NCBI GenBank assembly: GCA_022450595.1
Contig: JAKUPT010000025.1
Span: 1-34,775 of the forward strand
DNA length: 34,775 nt
Direction: 5' to 3'
Source: Bdellovibrionales bacterium
Lineage (GTDB): Bacteria > Bdellovibrionota > Bdellovibrionia > Bdellovibrionales > UBA1609
The translations under genes were made by a program, and so were the position numbers. Of the stretch, positions 783 to 29,920 are shown one piece after another (within the stretch, counting starts at the first letter, position 1; every line of letters starts with the position of its first letter). The notes beneath the pieces are model-generated. The model was given only the letters and a program-made list of their open reading frames with translations. It was not told the DNA's origin and did no database searches.

Positions 783-3488
783 ATGATCGCAAACATTATG
801 ACCAAGATTCTTGGCACAAAACACGACCGTGATATGAAGAAGATTCGCCCTTTAGTGGATCAAATCAATGACCTAGAAGCGGAATACGAAGCTCTGTCCG
901 ATGAGCAAATTAAAGCCAAAACAACTGAGTTCAAAGAGAGAGTCGAAAAAGGTGAGACCCTTGACGACATTCTGCCTGAGGCGTTTGCCGTTTGCCGGGA
1001 GGCTTCAAAGCGGGTTTTAGGAATGCGCCACTACGATGTGCAGCTCATTGGAGGGATTGTTCTTCACCGAGGCAGTATTGCTGAGATGAAAACTGGTGAA
1101 GGGAAAACCCTTGTGGCCACTCTATCTGTTTACCTTAATGCTTTGAGTGGTAAAGGCGTTCATGTGGTGACTGTGAATGATTACTTGGCTCATCGTGACA
1201 GTGAGTGGATGGGGCAAGTCTATCGTTGGCTGGGATTGACGGTGGGTTGTATCACTCATGAGCTCAGTGACCAAGAAAGAAAGCAAGCTTACGGCGCTGA
1301 TATCACTTATGGAACCAACAATGAGTTTGGATTTGATTATTTAAGAGACAATATGAAGTACGACTTAGAGGACTATGTTCAAAGAGAATTGAACTATGCC
1401 ATTGTCGATGAGTGTGACTCCATTTTAGTGGATGAAGCTCGTACACCACTAATTATCTCTGGGCCTTCGGAAGAGTCTACAGAAAAGTACTACGTCATTA
1501 ACCAAGTGATTCCACATTTAAAAATGGAAGAGCACTTTACAATTGAAGAAAAAACCAAAACCGCATCATTAACGGATGAAGGGAATGAAAAGGTTGAGGA
1601 GCTTTTAGGCATTAAAAACCTCTATGACCCCGAGCACATTTCAACTCTTCATAATATTTATCAAGGCTTAAAGGCCTATCACTTGTTTCACAAAGATGTG
1701 GATTATATGGTGAAAAATGATGAGATTGTCATTGTTGATGAATTCACTGGTCGGTTGATGGCCGGGCGTCGCTGGAGTGATGGTTTACACCAAGCCATTG
1801 AAGCCAAAGAGGGCGTAAAAATTAAAAGTGAAAACCAAACCTTGGCATCAATCACTTTCCAGAACTATTTTAGAATGTACAACAAGCTAAGTGGTATGAC
1901 CGGGACGGCTGAAACTGAGTCTGTTGAATTTAAAAAGATTTATGATTTAGACGTGGTAGTTATCCCTACAAATAGACCAATTCAAAGAAAAGACCACAAC
2001 GATGTGGTCTACAAAACGGAGCCGGCAAAGTATAAGGCTATGGCCGAGGATATTAAAGAGCGTGCCGACAAAGGTCAGCCAATTCTTGTAGGTACTGTGA
2101 GTATTGAAAAGTCTGAGGAAATTAGTAAAGCCCTACAGAAGTTAAATATTAAACATAATGTTCTAAACGCCAAACACCACGAAAAAGAGGCGGAGATTGT
2201 GGCGCAAGCCGGGCGTAAAGGCTCAGTGACCATTGCGACTAACATGGCCGGTCGTGGAACAGATATTGTTTTAGGTGGTAACCCAGAATTTTTGGCTAAA
2301 GATGAAGTTGAAGATGTCGACAGTGAAGCCTATGAGCAGGCACTAAAAAAATACACTGAGCTTTGTGAAAAAGAAAAGCAAGAGGTGATTGAAGCTGGTG
2401 GGCTCTATATCATGGGGACCGAAAGACACGAGTCTCGTCGTATTGATAACCAGTTAAGAGGCCGTGCCGGTCGTCAGGGAGATCCAGGGGCGTCACGTTT
2501 TTACCTCTCACTTGAAGACAACTTAATGCGTATTTTTAATGGTGAGCGCATTCAGCAAATTATGTCTATGTTAAAAGTGCCAGACGATGAGCCGATCACT
2601 GCCAAAAGCGTGAACCGCGCCATTGAGTCGGCTCAAAAGAAAGTGGAAGGCCATCACTTTGACATACGTAAACACTTATTGGAATACGACGATGTGATGA
2701 ACCAACAACGTCATGGGGTGTACACTCTAAGACGTCATGTCCTTGAGGGCGATAATTTAGACCGAACCATTTTAGATTGGTTAGGGGAAGTCACTTCAGA
2801 CATGTTAGATGTTTTTGCTGGCGAAAAAATGAAGCCAGAGCAGTGGGATTTAGAGGGGTTGAATAAAGCCCTTGAGCGACAATTTGGTTTAAATATTGAG
2901 TTTGGCGACAGAAGCCAACTCAATCCAGAAAAAATCACTGACCTTGTCAGTCGTGGTGTAAAGGCTGTTTTTGATGACCAAAAAGAGAAGCTGGGTGATC
3001 ATTTTGCACAAATTCAAAAAATGCTTATGCTTCAAACCATTGATCAAAAATGGAAAGAGCATTTGCAGGGTATTGATCAGCTTAAAGAGGGGATTAACCT
3101 CCGCGCTTATGCTCAAAAAGATCCCCTGATTGAATATAAAAAAGAGGCCTTTGCCGCTTATGAAAAAATGCATCAGCAAATTCAATCAGAAGTTATTGAA
3201 AAGCTGTTAAAAATCCAAATCGTATCACCAGAGCGAGCACGTGAGTTGGAGCAAATGTCACAACAAAGAGAGCTAGACGATTCAGGCTTTCAATATGCAG
3301 GTGCTGATGAGTCAGATGCTGGTGGTGGCTTTGATGATATACCGCTGGGGATGATGGCCAACCAACAAGGTGGTCAGCAGCAGATGAATTACTCCCATGG
3401 TGGTAACAGCGGCGGCGCTGAGGCCGAGAGAACGATGAATCGTGCAGAGCGCAGGCGACTTGAGCGCAAAAAGAAAAAGCGTAAATAA
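783..3488 (+). CDS. secA: Preprotein translocase ATPase SecA, without C-terminal zinc-binding domain
   Basis: SecA drives unfolded preproteins through SecYEG by ATP hydrolysis. The ATG at 783 (901 residues) is preferred over an in-frame TTG at 768 because a GAGGTGG ribosome binding site lies 6 nt before it and the resulting N-terminus aligns with known SecA. Visible motifs are Walker A MKTGEGKT (about 102-109), the DEAD-like Walker [26 protein letters not shown] and the arginine-finger region [11 protein letters not shown] of nucleotide-binding domain 2, and the helical wing and scaffold. The usual C-terminal CxCxSGxx...CH zinc motif that contacts SecB and ribosomes is absent. Instead a Gly/Gln/Met-rich linker ends in a very basic tail, [17 protein letters not shown] bidirectional terminator follows directly. 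Confidence 0.97.
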
Positions 3489-3491
3489 GCG

Positions 3492-3523
3492 AAAAAAGCC
3501 AAACAAGTTGTTTGGCTTTTTTT
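3492..3523. terminator. Bidirectional intrinsic terminator after secA
   Basis: GCCAAAC (3498-3504), a five-base loop and GTTTGGC (3510-3516) are flanked by six A on the left and seven T on the right. The hairpin can therefore terminate transcription arriving from either side. It would serve secA on the plus strand and the small minus-strand gene ending at 3522. Confidence 0.9.
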
Positions 3524-3611
3524 ATATGTTAAAGATCAAACTAGATAGATAGAAAAAACAGACGATAAATAAGAATTCTACAACGTATCCGATAAAAAGA
3601 CGACTTTCCAT
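3522..3611 (-). CDS. Possible 29-residue single-span membrane peptide
   Basis: On the minus strand an ATG at 3611 follows an AAAAAGGAG ribosome binding site with 5-nt spacing. It opens a 29-codon frame ending in TAA inside the A-tract of the secA terminator. The product begins MESRLFIGYVVEFLF and continues almost entirely hydrophobic (Ile, Phe, Val, Leu, Tyr), which suits one transmembrane helix with a short charged N-terminus. The strong ribosome binding site, hydrophobic composition and use of the shared terminator argue for a real small gene. Its shortness and the lack of a comparison argue for caution. I recognise no family. The region 3612-3705 would hold its promoter, back to back with the next gene. 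Confidence 0.45.
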   Translation of the reverse strand: MESRLFIGYVVEFLFIVCFFYLSSLIFNI

Positions 3612-3692
3612 AACATCTCCTTTTTGACTTAACTCTAAGACTTTTGTGTGAGTGTTCTATGAGAAAGCTATGTGAAATCTGTAAAGACAATG

Positions 3693-3698
3693 TATAAT
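3693..3698 (+). promoter_or_regulatory. -10 box of the zinc-ribbon gene, leaderless geometry
   Basis: A perfect TATAAT at 3693-3698 ends 7 nt before the ATG at 3706. There is no ribosome binding site in between. The -35 region is weak, with no good TTGACA match 16-18 bp upstream. The transcript probably starts at the ATG. Confidence 0.4.
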
Positions 3699-3705
3699 AA
3701 AGTTT

Positions 3706-4527
3706 ATGGTTCAATGTACTCAGTGTAATAGCGAATTGGATGAAGACTTTGGTCTGGTGACTTGTCAAAACTGTGGCGCGCAGTTGTTGATTGAAATGGA
3801 CGGCCAAGTTGTGGATGCACACTCCAATGAGTCCAACCAGTCAGCAGAGCCGGCACAAGAAGAGGCGTCTTCAGATGCATTTTCTGCAGTTCAAGAGCTG
3901 ACTCAGAATATGCTCTCAGAGCTAGATGAAAACAATCAGACAGCCGATGTGTTTGACTCGCCACAAGCAGAAGAGTCCTCACCGGAAGAGCTTGAAGGCT
4001 TTGATGAGAATCAGGAGATGGTGAGTGAAGAGCCCGTGCAAGAGCCTGAAAATCAATGGGATTTGGAGCAAGAAGTATCATATCCTGAGCAAGACCAAGA
4101 AGAGTTCGAAGAGCCTCAAGATTCCCCAAGCGTGGCCCAAGAGATGGAGCCTCCAGTACAGCAAAATATTTCTGAGCCCGTTGAAGATTCTGTGATTCAA
4201 GAGTCTTGGCCAGAAGAGGAATCTCACCATCCCAATGATATGATGCAAGAGATACAAGACTTTGCAAATTCTGATGAATCGGCTTTAGAGCAGGGGGCTT
4301 TACTTTATGACATCAGAATACAGGGTATTGATACAAAAGAGCTTAGAGGTGAAATTTTAGAGTATTTAAACGACTCAAAATTGGGGTTGGATTTAGAGAG
4401 TTTAAAAATAGATCAAGGCACTTTAATTGTAAAAAGCCTGAACCCTGTGGTTGTCTCAGTGATAGCTCAACGTTTAAAGCCCTTACCTATAGTTTTAGAT
4501 TGGAGGCAACATGCGGCTTATTCTTAG
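3706..4527 (+). CDS. Zinc-ribbon protein with long acidic linker and conserved-looking C-terminal domain
   Basis: This is a 273-residue protein of unknown function. Residues 4-23 form a four-cysteine zinc ribbon (C4-x2-C7, C20-x2-C23) of the rubredoxin/MJ0042-like kind. Residues 30-195 are almost wholly Glu, Asp, Gln, Ser and Pro and should be disordered and strongly acidic. Residues 200-273 form a compact alpha/beta segment with a run near DIRIQGIDTKELRGEILEYL and a hydrophobic end. There is no signal peptide or membrane span, so it is probably cytoplasmic. The stop codon lies 17 nt inside the next gene, which implies co-transcription and translational coupling. A long antisense frame across the acidic stretch is a by-product of the skewed composition. 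I do not recognise a named family. Confidence 0.8.
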   Translation: MVQCTQCNSELDEDFGLVTCQNCGAQLLIEMDGQVVDAHSNESNQSAEPAQEEASSDAFSAVQELTQNMLSELDENNQTADVFDSPQAEESSPEELEGFDENQEMVSEEPVQEPENQWDLEQEVSYPEQDQEEFEEPQDSPSVAQEMEPPVQQNISEPVEDSVIQESWPEEESHHPNDMMQEIQDFANSDESALEQGALLYDIRIQGIDTKELRGEILEYLNDSKLGLDLESLKIDQGTLIVKSLNPVVVSVIAQRLKPLPIVLDWRQHAAYS

Positions 4528-5020
4528 TGTGATTATGGTTTTTGTATCAATATCTGCATTTGCTGTAGATGAGTACGGCAGGCTGTCAGCTAAATTAAAT
4601 ACTATTGAAACAAGAATTAGAGATCAGCGCAAAACCATTATGGAGTTGGCTGTTGAAAAAAATAATGTCTCAGAAAAACAGCAAAAGCTTAAGTTAATAG
4701 AGCAAATGAAAACAGTTAATCAGGCTTTGAATACAGACATTGATGAGTACAACGAGATTAAATCAAAAATTGAGCACAGATACCCAAAGCGCAAAGGGGA
4801 GATTGAAAGGCGTTATCGCCCTCAGAAAAGACAGTCTGTGGAAGAAGTTGAAAGCAATGTTGGGCTTGTTAAAAATATAGAGCAAGTTGAGGCCTTACTT
4901 GAAAAGCAGTACGGACAATTTAAAAAAACGAAAGAAGTTGAAGCTTTTGAAAAGCACATTGAAAAAAAAGAAACTCAAAAAAAAGAAGAGTCTAAAAAGA
5001 AGTTAAGACTCATAAATTAG
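4511..5020 (+). CDS. Secreted coiled-coil protein of unknown function
   Basis: This 169-residue protein has a clear Sec signal peptide (MRLILSVIMVFVSISAFA, cleavage expected before VDEYG). The rest is nearly continuous helix with heptad-like Leu/Ile/Val spacing and many Lys, Glu and Gln, as expected of a periplasmic coiled coil. The end is strongly Lys/Glu-rich. GGAGG at 4502-4506 gives a proper ribosome binding site inside the upstream gene, and the two genes overlap by 17 nt. This ties an exported protein to a cytoplasmic zinc-ribbon protein in one transcript. Its 3' end overlaps the convergent lipoprotein gene by 4 bp. I recognise no family. Confidence 0.75.
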   Translation: MRLILSVIMVFVSISAFAVDEYGRLSAKLNTIETRIRDQRKTIMELAVEKNNVSEKQQKLKLIEQMKTVNQALNTDIDEYNEIKSKIEHRYPKRKGEIERRYRPQKRQSVEEVESNVGLVKNIEQVEALLEKQYGQFKKTKEVEAFEKHIEKKETQKKEESKKKLRLIN

Positions 5021-5376
5021 TTTTGGGCTCTTTGGTATTGCATGATTTTAGCTTCATAGGCCTCCATGGTGGGGGCATCTTTTGCTTGCTCTAGCAGAGA
5101 ATAGCGCTTTTGTTTGTCGCTGACCTCAGTCACCTCACCATGGTGAATGGTGATGAAGGATCTCGTGGGTTTGTCTTCTTGATAATACGTGTATATCCAT
5201 ATGTCTTTGCCACTTTCACGTCGTTTGAAGTTTGGGGACCCCAATCTTTCAATAACGTCTCCCTTGGTCATTCCAGGGTGAACTCTTTCGATGGCCTTGT
5301 GCATTGGGCTAACACACCCAGAAAAAAACAGGCCTAGGGCCAGTAAAGTGACTGTTGTTTTTATAGACAGAGACAT
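5017..5376 (-). CDS. BamE/SmpA/OmlA-like outer-membrane lipoprotein
   Basis: The ATG at 5376 (119 residues) follows AAAGGAG with 6-nt spacing and is preferred over an in-frame codon at 5406. The N-terminus is a lipoprotein signal ending in a lipobox LFFSGC, so the mature protein should be acylated at that Cys. The following segment, HPGMTKGDVIERLGSPNFKR...WIYTYY, is the hallmark of the SmpA/OmlA fold, seen in BamE of the beta-barrel assembly machine and in other small envelope lipoproteins. The rest is a short charged tail. A role in the outer envelope is likely, but whether it is the true BamE cannot be decided from sequence alone. Its end overlaps the convergent coiled-coil gene. Confidence 0.75.
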   Translation of the reverse strand: MSLSIKTTVTLLALGLFFSGCVSPMHKAIERVHPGMTKGDVIERLGSPNFKRRESGKDIWIYTYYQEDKPTRSFITIHHGEVTEVSDKQKRYSLLEQAKDAPTMEAYEAKIMQYQRAQN

Positions 5377-5543
5377 TTTTTGCTCCTTTAAACTCAATAT
5401 AACCAATAATTAACATCCGTAGTTATAATTAGCATGTTCAGTGCCAGGGGGCAAAAAAGCCCACCGAAGCCTCTTTTAAGTGATTTAGTTCTACTTTGGA
5501 ACCAAAATCTAAAGTCTATTTAGAATATCAACATACAAAAGAA

Positions 5544-5589
5544 AATGATTTGAGAATGATTTGACTCTCCGGTAGCCTTAAAGTATCAA
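5544..5589 (+). promoter_or_regulatory. Promoter of the cytochrome oxidase operon with upstream direct repeat
   Basis: TTGACT (5561-5566), a 17-bp spacer and TATCAA (5584-5589) form a good promoter with a start near 5596. AATGATTTGA is directly repeated at 5544-5553 and 5555-5564, one helical turn apart (11-bp period), with the second copy running into the -35 box. This looks like a tandem site for a regulator, acting on the same DNA face. Confidence 0.5.
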
Positions 5590-5632
5590 AAATTAAATTT
5601 TATTATAACTATTATTAAGGTTGGTTGTCGTT

Positions 5633-6163
5633 ATGAGCACTTACGATCCAGGTTCCTTCAACAAGTCCGGACTATTTATCTTTTTGTTCTCCTTTGGTTT
5701 TTCCATCCTCTTCATTTTTGCAATCTCTTTTATGCATCCAGGAGTGGAAAATCTGGATCAAATCAGATCTGATGCAAAGGCCGTGTCAGAACAGGCGGAA
5801 GAAAAGTCCGTTGAATTTAGTGAAGATTCTGTGGAAAAGCCTTGGATCTCATCTGAAGAGCTTATTGCCTATGGGAAAAAACAGTATCAAGCCAATTGTG
5901 TCGCTTGCCACATGGCTGATGGAAAAGGTGGCGGTCCGGTTGCTGCGCGTAATCTTGTTGAGGGTAACTGGCAGCAGGGTGGAAGTTCAATTGCTCTTTA
6001 TAAGACTCTTAAAAACGGTATTGAAGGCACATCTATGGCCAGCTTTGCCCACCTATCAAAAGTAAAGCGTTGGGCTTTAGTTCATTACGTAAGATCTATT
6101 ACTAACAACAAAGTTGAAGACGACATGAGCAAATTAGAAGAGTTTGGTAAAAACGCCGAGTAA
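5633..6163 (+). CDS. Membrane-anchored class I cytochrome c
   Basis: The protein has 176 residues from the ATG at 5633; an upstream in-frame TTG would add only four. A hydrophobic segment at residues 14-34 anchors it in the inner membrane with the haem domain outside. After an acidic linker the haem-binding motif CVACH lies at 89-93, followed by DGKGGG, and a Met in the C-terminal half (GTSMASF) is the likely second iron ligand. It opens the oxidase operon, and the next gene starts about 20 bp later, so it most likely carries electrons from the bc1 complex or another quinol donor to the caa3 oxidase. The ribosome binding site (AAGG) is 12 nt away and weak. Confidence 0.88.
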   Translation: MSTYDPGSFNKSGLFIFLFSFGFSILFIFAISFMHPGVENLDQIRSDAKAVSEQAEEKSVEFSEDSVEKPWISSEELIAYGKKQYQANCVACHMADGKGGGPVAARNLVEGNWQQGGSSIALYKTLKNGIEGTSMASFAHLSKVKRWALVHYVRSITNNKVEDDMSKLEEFGKNAE

Positions 6164-6183
6164 TTTGCTGAAAGGTTTTAACT

Positions 6184-7023
6184 GTGTATAAGTGGTTTTT
6201 TGCTGTATTTACGTGTTTGATTTTAATGATCTCACTGCACACTTATGCCTATGAACCAAGCTTTAACAAAGCCTCAGATGTGAAGCCTCATGAGCTAGAG
6301 GGTGTAGGCATTACACCTAAAATTGGTGAGTATGTTGATCTTTCAACTGAGTTTACTGACGCCAATGGAAATAACGTCACTTTAGGGCAATACTTCCAGG
6401 GGACAAAACCAGTTATTTTTAGTGTGGTTTATTATAACTGTCCAAGTCTTTGTAATTTTCATTTAAACGGTTTAACCGACACAATGAAAAAGCTTAAGTG
6501 GACGGTTGGAGACAAGTTTGAGTTAGTGGCATTAACGATGAATCATCGAGAGGGCTACGAGCTGGCTGCTCAAAAAAAACAAAGCTATATTGATGAGTAT
6601 GGCAGGCCGGAATCGAAAGATGGCTGGCATTTTTTAACGGGCACTGAAGAGAATATAAAAAAAGTTGCCGATCAGGTCGGTTTTGGCTTTAAGTGGCTAG
6701 ACGATCAGCAAGAATATGCGCACGCGTCGGCAGCTATTGTTATGACTCCTGGTGGTAAAATCTCTCGTTATTTAAACGGGATTGAATTTGATAAAAAAGA
6801 TCTGCGTTTGGCTTTGTTAGAGGCATCCAGCGGTAAGATTGGAAATGTTGTTGATCAAATTGTCATGTTTTGTTTTCAGTTTGATCCAACAAAAAATAAA
6901 TATTCGCTATACGCGTTTAATTTAATGAGATTAGGTGCTGGTCTAATGGTTTTAGTACTGGCTATAATACTTATTCCAATGTGGATTAGGGAACGTAAGA
7001 AAAAAGCAAGCTTAGAGCCTTAA
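6184..7023 (+). CDS. SCO1/SenC/PrrC-type copper chaperone for cytochrome oxidase
   Basis: This is a 279-residue protein starting at GTG, with AAAGG 8 nt upstream. It has a signal peptide/anchor (1-22), a thioredoxin-like domain and a second transmembrane helix at about 250-268 followed by a positive tail. The copper-binding pair C86-PSL-C90 and H180 (EYAHASA), the three conserved SCO ligands, are all present. SCO proteins insert copper into the CuA site of subunit II, which is encoded next. Position between the cytochrome c and coxB supports this. The C-terminal membrane anchor is an extra compared with short SCO proteins but is common in bacterial oxidase operons of this layout. Confidence 0.92.
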   Translation: MYKWFFAVFTCLILMISLHTYAYEPSFNKASDVKPHELEGVGITPKIGEYVDLSTEFTDANGNNVTLGQYFQGTKPVIFSVVYYNCPSLCNFHLNGLTDTMKKLKWTVGDKFELVALTMNHREGYELAAQKKQSYIDEYGRPESKDGWHFLTGTEENIKKVADQVGFGFKWLDDQQEYAHASAAIVMTPGGKISRYLNGIEFDKKDLRLALLEASSGKIGNVVDQIVMFCFQFDPTKNKYSLYAFNLMRLGAGLMVLVLAIILIPMWIRERKKKASLEP

Positions 7024-17706: not shown

Positions 17707-18219
17707 CTGGCAAGCTCACTTGTTTTAAATGCAAGTTACGAACCAATCAAAGTTGTAAATTGGCAAAAGGCCATACTATTGTGGTTAACAAATAAAGTCG
17801 ATGTTTTAGAGTTTCACACAGTACAAGTCCATAGTGCGCAAAGAAGTTTTTTTTTACCAAGTGTTTTAAAATTAAAAAAATATATTAATATGAAATTTCA
17901 AAAACGTGTGCGATTTTGTCGTGAACACATTTTTTTAAGAGATAATTTTACTTGCCAATACTGTTATAAAAAACTCCCTTCAAAGCTGCTAACAATTGAT
18001 CATGTTATGCCTTTATCAAGAGGTGGTAAAAATAAGTGGACCAATGTGGTTGCAGCATGCAGCAAGTGCAACAACGTAAAAGGAAATAAAACTCCTGATG
18101 AGGCAAGAATGCCTTTATTGACTAAACCTTATGCGCCTAAAAGTTTGCCGCAAAAAAAATGGATGAATAAAAAGTCTAAATATCCGGAGGAGTGGATGCC
18201 GTATTTGGGGGCGGGTTAA
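17707..18219 (+). CDS. HNH endonuclease of the McrA-like family, with a non-standard start
   Basis: The HNH domain is plain: CREHIFLRDNFTCQYC, LLTIDHVMPLSRGGKNKWTN and AACSKCNNVKGNKTP, giving the two CxxC zinc knuckles and the catalytic His in DHV. The first in-frame ATG, GTG or TTG is the TTG at 17779, yet the frame is open and clearly family-like before it: LVLNASYEPIKVVNWQKAIL is the conserved N-terminus of this family. A CTG at 17707 would start the protein at MASSLVLNASYEP (170 residues). AAGGAGG lies at 17681-17687, 19 nt from that CTG, with no standard start codon at normal distance. A stop at 17665 bounds the frame. A non-canonical start or a sequence error is implied. The stop codon lies in the long hairpin that follows. 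Confidence 0.82.
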   Translation: MASSLVLNASYEPIKVVNWQKAILLWLTNKVDVLEFHTVQVHSAQRSFFLPSVLKLKKYINMKFQKRVRFCREHIFLRDNFTCQYCYKKLPSKLLTIDHVMPLSRGGKNKWTNVVAACSKCNNVKGNKTPDEARMPLLTKPYAPKSLPQKKWMNKKSKYPEEWMPYLGAG

Positions 18220-19414: not shown

Positions 19415-20608
19415 ATGTCTTTCAAGTTTTGGTCGCTATTATTTATTACATTATTTTTTAATGTATCGTTATTTGCCTCTCAATGTGTGGAGCTATTTCC
19501 CACTTATATTGCTAAAACCTCTGAGTTATTTAAAGCTCCCGATCACAATTTTTTTTACAGTCAGTTGAAAGACTCAGGGCTCTCTGAAAAAAACTTAAGG
19601 TTAGAGGTGCTGCATGAGCTAGTGCCTCCCAAAAGTCCTTTTTATGATCATGTAAGAGTGCGTGCAGTTAACACTTATAATGCCTCAAAGACATCCTATG
19701 AAGGATTGGTCGATGTGCTTCACATTGCCCTTGATGGAGCCATGAGTGTTAAGTCTTATCCCGTACATGTGGTAGAGGGCAGTATAATAAATAAAGCGAA
19801 TATTTTAAATTTTTTATCAATAGAGTTTAAATCTCAGTATCATATTCTAGATTTAAAAACCATGCTCAATGAAGCCTACCAAAACAAAGATTTTTTAAAA
19901 GCCGTGATTCAAGATGTGGCAAAACATCACAATTGGGGAGCTTTAGATTCTGTACCAACTGTGCAAAGAAGTACTAAGGGGTATAGACTTAAAAATTATT
20001 TTCGTCTGAAAGAAAAAGTTTTTTCAAGAACACTAGATAAAATGATTGCCAAAATTCAAAGGCCCACATCAGTGGAGCTTTTCAAAATTGAGCGGGTGGA
20101 TGATTTATTGGCTGCTAGAATTGTGGTGAAAAGTTCAAGCCCATTATTAGATAAGCATTTTGTAAATAAGAATTTAACTAAGATTTTAAAAAAGCATAAA
20201 GCTAAAATTGTTAATATTGAAAAAAAAGGTGTGGATGATGTGAAGGCCTCTGGTTACTCAGCCGTTCATATTACCATTGCTAATAGTCAAAATAGACATG
20301 AAATACAAATCATGACTGAGGCTATGAGCATTTGGCACAGATGGGAACACCATATTTATAAAACTAAACACCTTTATAACAAAGAGTATAGATTTGCTTT
20401 AGAGTCTTACAGCCGAGACCTAGCAGAGCTTGTAAGTCTTTTAGAAAAACAGATCTCGCAAAAAAAGTTATTCTTTAAGACCAGAAAAGACGGTGTTACT
20501 GAGGAAAGTTTTGCTCAATTGAATCAGTACTACCAAAAGCACTATAGAATTCAGTCTGAGCACATATTCACTCAAGAGCATATTACAGAAGTGTTACAAG
20601 CCAGATAG
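19415..20608 (+). CDS. Exported protein with RelA/SpoT-type nucleotide pyrophosphokinase domain
   Basis: A 397-residue protein with a Sec signal peptide (1-22, FITLFFNVSLFA) and no lipobox. Residues 25-190 match no family I know. Residues 190-320 carry the RelA/SpoT synthetase fold with its key residues: the ATP-binding arm RLKEKVFS (197-204), the Mg-binding Asp in VDDLLAARIVV (228-238), the G-loop GYSAVH (280-285, Tyr stacking on the acceptor nucleotide), the catalytic Glu in HEIQIMTEAM (E296), and WHRWEHHIYK (307-316). The hydrolase (HD) domain of bifunctional Rel proteins is absent. Cytoplasmic Rel enzymes make (p)ppGpp, so export with an intact active site points to an effector or toxin acting in another cell, or to an unknown envelope role. 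Both are inference. It stands as a single gene. Confidence 0.82.
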   Translation: MSFKFWSLLFITLFFNVSLFASQCVELFPTYIAKTSELFKAPDHNFFYSQLKDSGLSEKNLRLEVLHELVPPKSPFYDHVRVRAVNTYNASKTSYEGLVDVLHIALDGAMSVKSYPVHVVEGSIINKANILNFLSIEFKSQYHILDLKTMLNEAYQNKDFLKAVIQDVAKHHNWGALDSVPTVQRSTKGYRLKNYFRLKEKVFSRTLDKMIAKIQRPTSVELFKIERVDDLLAARIVVKSSSPLLDKHFVNKNLTKILKKHKAKIVNIEKKGVDDVKASGYSAVHITIANSQNRHEIQIMTEAMSIWHRWEHHIYKTKHLYNKEYRFALESYSRDLAELVSLLEKQISQKKLFFKTRKDGVTEESFAQLNQYYQKHYRIQSEHIFTQEHITEVLQAR

Positions 20609-25171: not shown

Positions 25172-25262
25172 GGAGAGGTGGCAGAGTGGTTGAATGCGCA
25201 CGCCTGGAACGCGTGTAGGCGTTAATAGCGTCTCGAGGGTTCGAATCCCTCCCTCTCCGCCA
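25172..25262 (+). tRNA. tRNA-Ser, anticodon GGA
   Basis: A 91-nt serine tRNA. The acceptor stem GGAGAGG (25172-25178) pairs with CCTCTCC (25252-25258), then discriminator G and encoded CCA. The anticodon stem CACGC/GCGTG encloses the loop CTGGAAC, giving anticodon GGA for UCC/UCU codons. The long variable arm of class II tRNAs is present, and the T arm carries GGTTCGAATCCC. The DNA beyond it looks like an accessory segment. Confidence 0.97.
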
Positions 25263-25349: not shown

Positions 25350-26099
25350 TTATAAAAATTTATCCATCATAATCAAAGATATTTTCTGCACTAACTCTTT
25401 TGTGTCCATAAAATAGTTTGGATAACTCACTTCAAGTTTTTTAATGTCACCAGTATTTACTAACACTATGTTGACCTGATCATCATTCAGGTGTTTTTGC
25501 TCTAATTCTAAATATAAATTTGCAGCTTCATCAAAGTGAATGGTGCCAAATGTTTTATAAGAAATAGTTTTTTCCCGAGAGTCTAGCACTACAAGCTGAT
25601 ATTTACCTTTTCTTCCTGAAGACATTTTTTTGGCTACAGTTTTGTATACTGCTGTGTATACATTAAGATTTTCAAGTACTTTAAGTTCATGATTTAAGTG
25701 TTTTATCTTTTTAAGTAATTCGTTCTTAGAATATTTTCGATGTTTTTTAAGGATTGGTTTACCTTCAAATAAAGCAAAAACAGAACTTAGTAATGCAAAA
25801 AATTCTAACCATTTTTTGTTTCCTTGTCCTGACTTAAAGGAGCTGTTTTGTAATGTTCCAAATACTTCAACACCAGTGGCCCACATATGTTGTAACTTAG
25901 AACGCATTTGTATTTCGAGAAAAATAGTTGGTTCTTTTTTTAACTTGTAAACTAGATGAATACTTCGGTACCCATCAGATTTTGGGTTATCAATATAATC
26001 ATGTAGTGAGTTTAATCTATGTTTGGATTTTGATTTTTTGTAAAGCTCCAAAAGTTTGTAGACCTCATCTACATTGTCCATTATAGCTCTTAATCCACA
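25350..26099 (-). pseudogene. Decayed RelA/SpoT-domain gene lacking its N-terminal half
   Basis: The open frame runs from the ATG at 26081 (243 residues), but matching sequence continues upstream to about 26099: CGLRAI before MDNVDEVYKLLEL corresponds to the family's GGCRAI-x-NV-x-x-VY. A stop codon precedes this, and no further match was found. Retained parts are YIDNPKSDGYRSIHLVYKL (G-loop), FLEIQMRSKLQHMWATGVEV (catalytic Glu block) and the C-terminal region of the longer GTP-pyrophosphokinase-like family (about 350 residues). The ATP-binding arm and the Mg-binding Asp are missing, so it cannot be an active synthetase. It sits just past tRNA-Ser and may be a leftover of horizontally acquired DNA. 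Confidence 0.7.
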
Positions 26100-27972: not shown

Positions 27973-28001
27973 TTGAGAAATCTATCATTTCGCCCGATAA
28001 T
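27973..28001 (+). promoter_or_regulatory. Promoter of the ABC-F leader
   Basis: TTGAGA (27973-27978), an exact 17-bp spacer and GATAAT (27996-28001) are close to the sigma-70-type consensus. Transcription would begin near 28008, about 14 nt before the ribosome binding site of the leader peptide. The region 27842-27972 upstream holds nothing I recognise. Confidence 0.65.
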
Positions 28002-28032
28002 GAATATATCAATACCTAACCGGAGAGCTTTG

Positions 28033-28077
28033 ATGAACAATACATCTATAAATTATATTAAAAGGAGCAGAGGTTAG
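28033..28077 (+). CDS. 14-codon leader peptide of the ABC-F gene
   Basis: GGAGAG (28022-28027) precedes an ATG by 5 nt and opens the frame MNNTSINYIKRSRG followed by TAG. The last codons and the stop lie inside the left arm of the antiterminator pairing. Position, size and the structures around it are those of a sensor peptide on which a drug-inhibited ribosome would pause. Confidence 0.65.
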   Translation: MNNTSINYIKRSRG

Positions 28078-28135
28078 GTCCATTCATAAATTTTAATTTT
28101 GTCTTATAAAACCTAGGCTCTGTCCTGGGTTTTTT
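28064..28135 (+). promoter_or_regulatory. Transcription attenuator: antiterminator and mutually exclusive intrinsic terminator
   Basis: The terminator is AAAACCTAGG (28108-28117), loop CTCTGT and CCTGGGTTTT (28124-28133) with one G-T pair, then a T-run. The antiterminator pairs 28064-28078 (GGA, CAGAG, TAGG segments) with 28112-28125 (CCTA, CTCTG, TCC): 12 Watson-Crick pairs, one G-T pair, one mismatch and one bulge. Both use 28112-28117, so only one can form. A ribosome finishing the leader at 28077 covers the left arm and lets the terminator form; one stalled near the start leaves it free and lets RNA polymerase through. Ribosome-mediated attenuation of this kind is known for other ABC-F resistance genes. 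Confidence 0.7.
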
Positions 28136-28172
28136 AGTTTTTATTCCCTTTAACAATAACAAGGAGATCAAC

Positions 28173-28316
28173 ATGAACAATTCTATCTCAACCAATTTCT
28201 GTTTTGGAAAACCAAAAACAACTGTTGAGAGGAGTTTGAATTTATGTTGTTGGTTAAGGGCGATAAAATCACATTTAAATATGAATCACAAACCCACGAA
28301 CTACTTACAGGAGTGA
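28173..28316 (+). CDS. Possible second leader ORF overlapping the ABC-F start
   Basis: AAGGAG lies 6 nt before an ATG at 28173 that opens a 47-codon frame beginning MNNSISTNFCFGKPKTTVE, similar in its first residues to the upstream leader (MNNTSIN). It runs 73 nt into the ABC-F gene in another frame and ends at 28316. Its excellent ribosome binding site suggests that it is translated. It could add a translational layer, by uncovering or competing with the ABC-F ribosome binding site, or be a chance frame. The peptide itself has no recognisable function. Confidence 0.4.
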   Translation: MNNSISTNFCFGKPKTTVERSLNLCCWLRAIKSHLNMNHKPTNYLQE

Positions 28317-29920
28317 GTTTTAGTGTCGACAATCATTCACGTATAGGTGTAGTTGGTAAAAACGGATCCGGTAAATCAACTCTATTAAAGATTTTGCTGG
28401 GAGAGTTACGGCCAATTACGGGTCATCTTCAGGCTTCGTCAGAGTTAAGTGTTGGGTACTTAAGGCAAGTGCAACCACAAGATGAGGGCTTAACGGTGCT
28501 TAACTATGTTTGGAGTACAAGACCAAAACTTCAAGCAATCAAAAAGACATTGTTAGTGGCTGAAAGCAACCCGGAACATCAAGATTGGTCTGTTTTTGCA
28601 GAATATGAAGAGAGTGGGGGATATGACTTTGAAGTTTCAATTGAAAAAAACTTAGCTCAGCTTGGGCTCGATTCGAGTTTTCTTCAGCGAAACGTTCAAT
28701 CATTAAGTGGTGGGGAGAAGACCAAGGTAGGACTTTTAAGAATTCTAGTTACAAATCCTTCGCTTTTACTTCTTGATGAGCCCACAAACAATTTAGACAT
28801 GGATTCCATTGAATGGCTGAAGGGGTATCTAGAAGCGACCTCCTTACCTTTTATTCTGGTCAGCCATGATCGTAGGCTTCTCAATGAGAGTGTTAGTGAA
28901 ATTTGGGAGATTGAAAAAGGCGAGCTCAAAATCTATTCTGGAGACTATAACTTTTTTAACAAGGCAAAAGATCAAAAGTATAAATCTGATCTTGAACAGT
29001 TTAAGCAGCAACAAAATAAAATAGGTCAACTACAATCAGCAGCCTCTGTAAGACGAGTGGACGCCCACAGGATGCAGAACTTTAAACCCACTCGCTCAAT
29101 TAAAAACAATGGAGGCTTATGTAAAAAAGATGAAGGTTCTGGTTCTGCTCAAGCCAACCCGGCAAAACAGATGAGGGCTGCTAAAGCAGTAGAGAAGCGC
29201 ATCCAACTTATGATTGATCGAGAAGAGGCAAAAAAGCCTTGGATAGAAAAAAAGCGCAAGATGGATCTTCCAGTAATTAATCCCTGTAAAAGTAAAACTG
29301 TGGTGAAGGTGAAGGAGCTAAGTCTTTATTATGACAACAAGATCCTTTTCTCCAATGTGACTTTTGCCGTTGAAAGGGGGCAGAGGTTAGCAATTGTAGG
29401 AAGTAATGGCAGCGGCAAAACCTCTTTAATTCAAACTTTGAATAGTGAAATCCAACATGATGGCGGAGATTACAAATGGTCACCCACTGTTGAAAAAAGT
29501 GTCTTTTATCAAGAAAACACAGATTTAAGAGATGATATGACTGTCTTAGATTCTGTCTGGAACCCAGAGGTTGTTGAGCAAAGTGTTGCTAGAACAATTT
29601 TAGGTAGCCTTGGCATAGGGGAAAACCTCATTGGCAGAAAAATAGCTCAGTTAAGTCCTGGTGAAAAAGTTAAAGTTGCTCTAGCAAAGTCAGTCCTTTC
29701 TGGGGCTAACACCTTGGTTCTGGATGAACCGACTAATCATTTAGAAATTCAAGGTCGAGAGATGCTAGAGGGGGCACTTCAAGATTATGGAGGCACTTTG
29801 ATTTTTGCATCTCATGATGTTTCGTTTATTGAGAAAGTCTCAACACGAGTTTTTGATCTCTCTTTGAACCAAGAGTTTGATTCTTTTGAGGAGTGGTATG
29901 ATGTGAAAAACTTCACATAG
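28244..29920 (+). CDS. ABC-F family ATPase, probable antibiotic-resistance ribosome-protection protein
   Basis: A 558-residue protein with GAGAGGAG 9 nt before its ATG. It has two ABC ATPase domains and no membrane spans. Domain 1 has Walker A GKNGSGKST (38-46), signature LSGGEK (154-159), Walker B LLLLDEPTNNLD (174-185) and SHD (207-209). Domain 2 has GSNGSGKTS (386-394), LSPGEK (470-475) and TLVLDEPTNHLE (490-501). The charged linker of about 240-345 is the P-site tRNA-interacting motif that reaches into the ribosome. Resistance ABC-Fs enter the E site and dislodge drugs from the peptidyl transferase centre or exit tunnel. The inducible attenuator upstream argues for resistance rather than a housekeeping role such as EttA or Uup. 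The drug class cannot be told from sequence. Confidence 0.88.
   Translation: MLLVKGDKITFKYESQTHELLTGVSFSVDNHSRIGVVGKNGSGKSTLLKILLGELRPITGHLQASSELSVGYLRQVQPQDEGLTVLNYVWSTRPKLQAIKKTLLVAESNPEHQDWSVFAEYEESGGYDFEVSIEKNLAQLGLDSSFLQRNVQSLSGGEKTKVGLLRILVTNPSLLLLDEPTNNLDMDSIEWLKGYLEATSLPFILVSHDRRLLNESVSEIWEIEKGELKIYSGDYNFFNKAKDQKYKSDLEQFKQQQNKIGQLQSAASVRRVDAHRMQNFKPTRSIKNNGGLCKKDEGSGSAQANPAKQMRAAKAVEKRIQLMIDREEAKKPWIEKKRKMDLPVINPCKSKTVVKVKELSLYYDNKILFSNVTFAVERGQRLAIVGSNGSGKTSLIQTLNSEIQHDGGDYKWSPTVEKSVFYQENTDLRDDMTVLDSVWNPEVVEQSVARTILGSLGIGENLIGRKIAQLSPGEKVKVALAKSVLSGANTLVLDEPTNHLEIQGREMLEGALQDYGGTLIFASHDVSFIEKVSTRVFDLSLNQEFDSFEEWYDVKNFT

Follow-up and report, generated by a model that had tools for sequence, protein, structure and literature searches.

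The gene for an ABC-F ATPase in the window (the whole stretch of 34,775 nucleotides analysed here) is preceded by a real attenuator of the vmlR kind. It is conserved, gene-specific and located in a diderm phylum, and it carries an extra overlapping upstream open reading frame (uORF); induction by drugs and a resistance function are predicted. On the sequence evidence, the elements, their mutual exclusiveness and their conservation are well established. We consider it likely that the leader as a whole acts as a transcription attenuator controlled by the position of the ribosome, with a second reading frame, uORF2, as a second lock, and that it is drug-responsive as proposed.

Architecture of the leader

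The features of the transcription attenuator and the regulated gene are as follows, all on the + strand.

27973..28001, +, sigma-70-type promoter TTGAGA-17-GATAAT, 10 of 12 consensus matches
28014..28021, +, outer 5' arm of the anti-antiterminator, ACCUAACC, pairing with GGUUAGGU at 28072-28079 in the fold of 28010-28145
28022..28027, +, uORF1 ribosome binding site GGAGAG, read from the sequence, enclosed by the anti-antiterminator
28027..28031, +, inner 5' arm of the anti-antiterminator, GCUUU, pairing with GGAGC at 28064-28068
28033..28077, +, uORF1, 14 codons, MNNTSINYIKRSRG, start ATG at 28033, stop TAG at 28075-28077
28063..28079, +, 5' arm of the antiterminator, overlapping the end of uORF1 (last codons and stop) as well as both 3' arms of the anti-antiterminator
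28086..28102, +, small hairpin at the antiterminator apex, from folding, AUAAA/UUUGU in the window
28108..28135, +, intrinsic terminator, 10-bp stem 28108-28117/28124-28133, U-run 28130-28135
28244..29920, +, ABC-F ATPase of 558 aa, the regulated gene, NCBIfam NF000355

The promoter was the best of eight candidates in the region (TTGAGA at 27973-27978, GATAAT at 27996-28001), and transcription is expected to start near 28008. Homologous leaders have counterparts at the matching place, TTGAGA-17-GATACT in L009 and TTGAGA-17-GATAAT in L010. In seven leaders, a short uORF with a ribosome binding site lies between the promoter and the terminator. This uORF1 has 14 codons in the window, L009, L010, L171 and L094, 15 in L093 and 17 in L092, and all seven are preceded by a similar ribosome binding site.

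Folding paired the antiterminator 5' arm with 28111-28126 over 15 base pairs. The isolated antiterminator stretch reached -20.3 kcal/mol, compared with a mean of -10.3 for shuffled sequences (z = -4.2; none of 200 shuffles was equal), and the value of the duplex, -21.7, was reached by 0.15% of 2000 dinucleotide shuffles. The 5' arm and loop of the terminator double as the 3' arm of the antiterminator, and the two structures are mutually exclusive. The apex hairpin reads ACAAA/UUUGU in L009 and L171 and GUAUU/AAUAC in L092 and L094. In a crude scan, the terminator by itself showed no excess over chance (two found, 2.1 expected). The whole architecture was rare, since only three of 731 background genes scored; these were looser look-alikes, in which no antiterminator fell below -15 kcal/mol.

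The arms of the anti-antiterminator flank the uORF1 ribosome binding site, and their 3' partners are bases of the antiterminator left arm. Its duplex in the window amounts to -16.0 kcal/mol, with 5.3% of shuffles as good. An anti-antiterminator was found at uORF1 in six leaders, with single-leader p values of 0.04-0.20 that are individually weak. Its inner pairs are GCUUU/GGAGC in the window, GUUCC/GGAAC in L009 and GCUCC/GGAGC in L171, with double changes in L009 and L171.

A preliminary description of this DNA had placed the promoter and the 14-codon leader with its ribosome binding site where we read them, and the stop codon of the leader indeed falls within the left antiterminator arm. Its antiterminator (28064-28078 with 28112-28125) was off by a base or two, and the stem and U-run of its terminator are present. 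The statement that every element is visible was right for all parts that it named, but the anti-antiterminator and uORF2 had been overlooked.

Ribosome position and the choice of structure

Leaders were folded with a ribosome footprint, extending 15 nt to each side, on each codon of uORF1. In RNA ending at the terminator loop, the antiterminator persisted for ribosome positions from codon 1 up to about codon 7 and was lost from about codon 8-9; this result covers the window, L009, L010, L092, L094 and L093. The decayed copy L171 was irregular in constrained folding. In the full-length window RNA, about 15 pairs of the antiterminator and none of the terminator formed with a ribosome on codons 1-2; codons 3-4 gave a mixed outcome, and codons 6-14 gave the terminator. 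Without a ribosome this RNA terminated, with 8.8 terminator pairs.

The truncated window RNA at equilibrium formed the antiterminator even without a ribosome. Hence, the default 'off' state depends on the anti-antiterminator forming first. Furthermore, the full-length folds of L009, L010, L092 and L171 favoured the terminator at every ribosome position, and L093 favoured the antiterminator without a ribosome. These deviating equilibrium folds imply that the switch must be kinetic and that the order of folding matters.

The constrained folding supports the earlier proposal that full translation leads to termination and an early stall to read-through, and suggests that the position of the ribosome decides between terminator and antiterminator. 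That model needs a correction, as an untranslated leader probably terminates as well, via the anti-antiterminator.

In the mechanism that we propose, RNA from the promoter at 27973 would carry uORF1. Without a ribosome, the anti-antiterminator (28014-28031 with 28064-28079) would sequester the left arm of the antiterminator and let the terminator form. During normal translation, the ribosome would cover this same arm (28063-28079), with the same outcome. The footprint of a ribosome held on about codons 1-5 would disrupt the anti-antiterminator and stop short of the left arm, which would then be free to form the antiterminator, and RNA polymerase would continue into the ABC-F gene. By rescuing stalled ribosomes, the ABC-F protein would switch off its own gene.

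Inhibitors of the peptidyl transferase centre that act in the start region or in early elongation hold ribosomes at early codons. Because early stalling is typical of such start-site and early-elongation inhibitors, these drugs would be the expected inducers, as for vmlR, cplR and the ARE5 genes. Chloramphenicol arrest is favoured when the residue preceding the stall site is Ala, Ser or Thr (PMC12121999). The conserved Thr4 of uORF1 was considered as a phenicol or oxazolidinone sensor and kept as a lead only, with two of the seven leaders lacking Thr4.

Conservation among homologous leaders

The ABC-F protein was searched against 369 genomes of the host phylum. Six more homologues were found, 36-64% identical (L009, L010, L092, L094, L093 and L011), of which L092 and L094 are two copies in genome G204. 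The same layout precedes five homologues in four other genomes and a gene remnant (L171) in a fifth. Before the five homologues, a uORF1 of 14-17 codons comes first, followed by the left arm of the antiterminator, the terminator and, in the readable leaders, uORF2. Conservation of the leader and its paired arms in relatives, on which the preliminary description had made its model depend, was thus found in six further leaders.

Counted from the uORF1 start, the left arm of the antiterminator begins at +29 to +37 in six leaders, and the duplexes of the window, L009, L010, L092, L094 and L093 always lie at +29 to +50. Compared with dinucleotide shuffles, the p values of these duplexes were 0.0015 in the window, 0.029 in L009, 0.077 in L010, 0.020 in L092, 0.054 in L094 and 0.0005 in L093. 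The antiterminator of L093 is an unrelated pairing, GGAUCAAUGU with ACAUUGAUCC, in the same place. A single difference between L092 and L094 recurs in each of the three competing arms, as C/U in the 5' arm of the antiterminator, as G/A in the arm common to both structures and as C/U in the 3' arm of the terminator, and both helices are kept. DNA identity was 79% in the leader versus 65% in the coding region for the window and L009, and 92% versus 75% for L092 and L094; the DNA upstream of the promoter was 49% identical.

The comparison of homologous leaders that had been suggested as a check for covariation thus yielded the layout and some compensating changes, but formal covariation counts in this handful of leaders were small and not above shuffles, because few sequences exist. 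The pair counts on alignment A4 are too low for L092, because MAFFT misaligns its terminator by one base. Masking by N at the gene start of L010 leaves only the start of uORF2 visible, and L093 has one stop within its ABC-F reading frame.

Genome G002 (L171; contig 3326-6462) has the leader, with a uORF1 of 14 codons, upstream of an ABC-F remnant without the first ABC domain, and uORF2 is lost as well. The homologue L011 has the tip-loop motif described below and two uORFs, MIQIS and MKLSTSINFQK..., the second of which overlaps the gene start, and no recognisable terminator was found upstream of it. It is perhaps a translational-only variant.

Specificity of the leader

A covariance model (R1) built from five leaders was scanned over the 369 genomes. 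Six of its matches were strong (90-136 bits); five of these precede intact genes of the window ABC-F family and one (L171) precedes the remnant, and nowhere else in these genomes did the leader rise above chance level. The next-best matches, L172 and L173 (29 bits), were rejected as leaders, being ordinary end-of-gene terminators. The upstream regions of 24 further ABC-F genes from the phylum were scanned and none contained a terminator with a matching uORF, and no Rfam family matches the leader. A contig profile search with a four-protein alignment was dominated by generic ABC motifs and returned only common ABC-Fs; viral contigs contained ABC-Fs at 35% identity or less only, and plasmids only relatives at about 32% identity or less.

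An ABC-F gene near 3988 in a Haloplasma assembly (L083) scored in the scan for terminator, antiterminator and uORF. Its uORF has 29 codons, and it is a possible further attenuator.

A second reading frame across the ABC-F start

Three further features, also on the + strand, lie between the terminator and the ABC-F gene or overlap its start.

28161..28167, +, uORF2 ribosome binding site AAGGAGA, strong, read from the sequence
28173..28316, +, uORF2, 47 codons, MNNSISTNFCFGKPKTT..., in the +2 frame, overlapping the ABC-F start by 73 nt
28180..28235, +, hairpin 28180-28192/28224-28235, in which early uORF2 codons mask the ABC-F ribosome binding site (28227-28234)

Located past the terminator, uORF2 crosses the ribosome site and start codon (28244) of the ABC-F gene out of frame. 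It is kept in all five fully readable genes (window, L009, L092, L094 and L093), where it has 41-49 codons, starts 62-71 nt before the ABC-F gene, uses the same frame and overlaps the gene by 64-85 nt. Its ribosome site is AACAAGGAGA in the window, L010, L092 and L094, AGCAAGGAGA in L009 and AACTAGGAGA in L093. An open frame past the gene start has a chance probability of 0.2-0.3 per leader and about 0.017 over three lineages, a figure that leaves the shared frame, spacing and ribosome site out of account. The N-termini of the two uORFs in the window are similar, MNNTSINYI in uORF1 (28033-28060) and MNNSISTNF in uORF2 (28173-28200).

In the folds of the window RNA, the ABC-F ribosome site was 6% unpaired without a ribosome, versus 45-57% with a ribosome on codon 1 or 5 of uORF2. 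The hairpin over this site is weaker in L009 and absent in L092, L094 and L093. We dropped the hairpin as a conserved translational attenuator, because only the window and L009 have it.

Read-through RNA would face uORF2 as a second lock. Ribosomes translating uORF2 would travel across the ribosome site and start codon of the ABC-F gene and thereby occlude them, and a ribosome stalled near the uORF2 start would free the ABC-F start and, in the window genome, open the hairpin. Occlusion is our preferred reading, because the overlap and not the hairpin is conserved in the five readable genes. That uORF2 occludes the ABC-F start when translated is moderately supported, and uORF2 may be both translated and regulatory. 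The full double lock in a diderm, where uORF1 would gate transcription, uORF2 would gate translation by occlusion and a drug would have to stall ribosomes at both, is a tentative reading, and we lean slightly against it. We know of no ABC-F leader with a uORF past the terminator that overlaps the gene start.

The ABC-F protein and its host

The window ABC-F scored 451.8 bits with NF000355 (ribosomal-protection-like ABC-F; cut-off 380). A paralogue of 604 aa in the same genome also passed, just over the cut-off at 380.9 bits, and NF000355 alone was therefore rejected as proof of a resistance function. Matches to named resistance families (Vga, Lsa, Sal, Msr, CplR, OptrA) reached at most 323 bits, compared with cut-offs of 680-1450, and the ABC-F subfamily involved belongs to no named resistance family. 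Among solved structures, the family profile ranked VmlR2 first, followed by Uup and YbiT; the fold comparison ranked PoxtA and VmlR2 first and EttA next, and a single-sequence search ranked YbiT first.

The structure model (pLDDT 84.5) has tandem ABC domains joined by a two-helix linker of the type that reaches the P site, with helices at 235-279 and 306-330. Between the linker helices lies a 26-residue tip loop of low model confidence, with the motif MENFKxTRSxKxNGGxCKRDEGSGS common to all but one aligned member. The gene had been described as an ABC-F resistance gene; the ABC-F part of this name is confirmed, whereas the resistance part derives from homology, for which NF000355 is unspecific. 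By this homology, the window ABC-F may confer resistance. The window genome encodes LptD, and hence its host is a diderm with an LPS outer membrane, in agreement with the Gram-negative lineage that had been assumed.

The motif is lacking in L094. The proteins of L092 and L094 are 75% identical, with the strongest divergence around the interdomain linker, where DNA identity is 48% (codons 251-300); possibly they combine the same sensor with a different drug range.

Nature of the signal

The same attenuator could respond to general trouble in initiation or early elongation, caused by ribosome assembly defects, difficult sequences, cold or starvation, with the ABC-F protein as a stress-induced rescue factor. 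Such a role would fit the induction of vmlR by ribosome assembly defects without a drug (PMC9226507), the fold scores of housekeeping ABC-Fs, which come close to those of resistance ones, and the passing NF000355 score of the paralogue. However, the distribution of the gene is patchy, with a homologue (E 1e-90) in only six of the 369 genomes, one decayed copy and one double copy, and looks like that of an accessory resistance gene. A long tip loop is a further trait of the family, and it is around the linker bearing this loop (codons 251-300) that the two G204 copies are least alike. We therefore regard a general stress signal as unlikely, and drug-responsive attenuation remains our preferred reading.

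Two other explanations are much less probable still. A weak constitutive terminator could simply lower expression, the alternative pairings being accidental and uORF2 a chance frame; the chance-level terminator count and the chance probability of the open uORF2 frame, which is not negligible, are what this account would expect. It is nevertheless very improbable, as the antiterminator recurs in place in six leaders, once with an unrelated sequence, the leader is more conserved than the gene, and so few background genes score. The least probable explanation is an amino-acid-starvation attenuator like those of the trp and thr operons, in which uORF1 would sense charged tRNA for Thr, Ile or Asn. 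Codon 4 encodes Thr (ACA) in five of the seven uORF1s, and Asn and Ile recur, but uORF1 contains no run of one amino acid, its composition varies freely (MNNTSINYIKRSRG, MKFTFLQEFWRSRG, MKNLFIQPIWRSIS), and the ABC-F gene is not biosynthetic.

Comparison with known systems

Attenuators with the same logic are known from vmlR (PMC9226507), cplR (PMC10201436) and are5/tiaA (PMC12421871), and the Bacillus precedent invoked in the preliminary description is borne out by vmlR. As in vmlR of Bacillus subtilis (PMC9226507), the uORF lies within an anti-antiterminator, the antiterminator has an apex hairpin, an intrinsic terminator follows, a hairpin covers the ribosome site of the gene, and an ABC-F is encoded downstream. 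The position of the apex hairpin in the window (28086-28102) matches that of the vmlR pause hairpin SL-2. In contrast, the vmlR uORF has 3 codons (MIN) instead of 14-17, and the leader described here has a second, overlapping uORF past the terminator, a diderm host and no sequence match to vmlR.

The cplR leader of Clostridioides difficile (PMC10201436) likewise controls an ABC-F gene by uORF-dependent attenuation at both the transcriptional and the translational level. However, its terminator hairpin itself hides the ribosome site of the gene, transcription ends at the gene start, its uORF is MR[I/M], and it has no uORF2. Ribosome-mediated attenuation of ABC-F genes also occurs for are5sc and tiaA in Streptomyces (PMC12421871), and are5sc has two predicted uORFs; unlike those in the window, these two overlap one another upstream, with translation limited to one of them, and the hosts are actinobacteria. 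Two leader peptides in one regulatory region are also present in ermB (ermBL and ermBL2; PMC8274638), but ermB encodes an rRNA methylase under translational control only, and ermBL2 overlaps the end of ermBL and is not reported to run through the gene start (PMC8274638). In the diderm Escherichia coli, the toiL uORF of toiL-topAI (PMC12121999) senses several classes of ribosome-targeting drugs. That system differs in being translational with Rho-dependent termination, in having a toxin-antitoxin target and in lacking an intrinsic terminator switch.

In the open-access literature, ABC-F attenuators were found in Gram-positive bacteria only and none in a diderm, an absence that is not proof, and the nearest drug-sensing uORF in a diderm was toiL of E. 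coli (PMC12121999). Pending the predicted drug induction, the leader would extend antibiotic-sensing ABC-F attenuation from Gram-positives to an outer-membrane phylum. It makes a sharp prediction as to which codons of the 14-codon leader must hold the ribosome and hence which drugs induce, and it could be used as a reporter for early-elongation inhibitors. The layout with two uORFs, if true, would be a new way of coupling both levels of control.

Other features of the window

At 25350-26081 (- strand), the window encodes a RelA/SpoT-domain protein whose match to the PADLOC candidate PDC-S33 begins only at profile position 103. A tRNA-Ser gene (25172-25262) lies near it, and a second RelA/SpoT-domain protein is encoded at 19415-20605. 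A small protein encoded at 17779-18219 (+ strand) has weak matches to defence models that contain an HNH nuclease (PtuB, and the nuclease part of Cas9).
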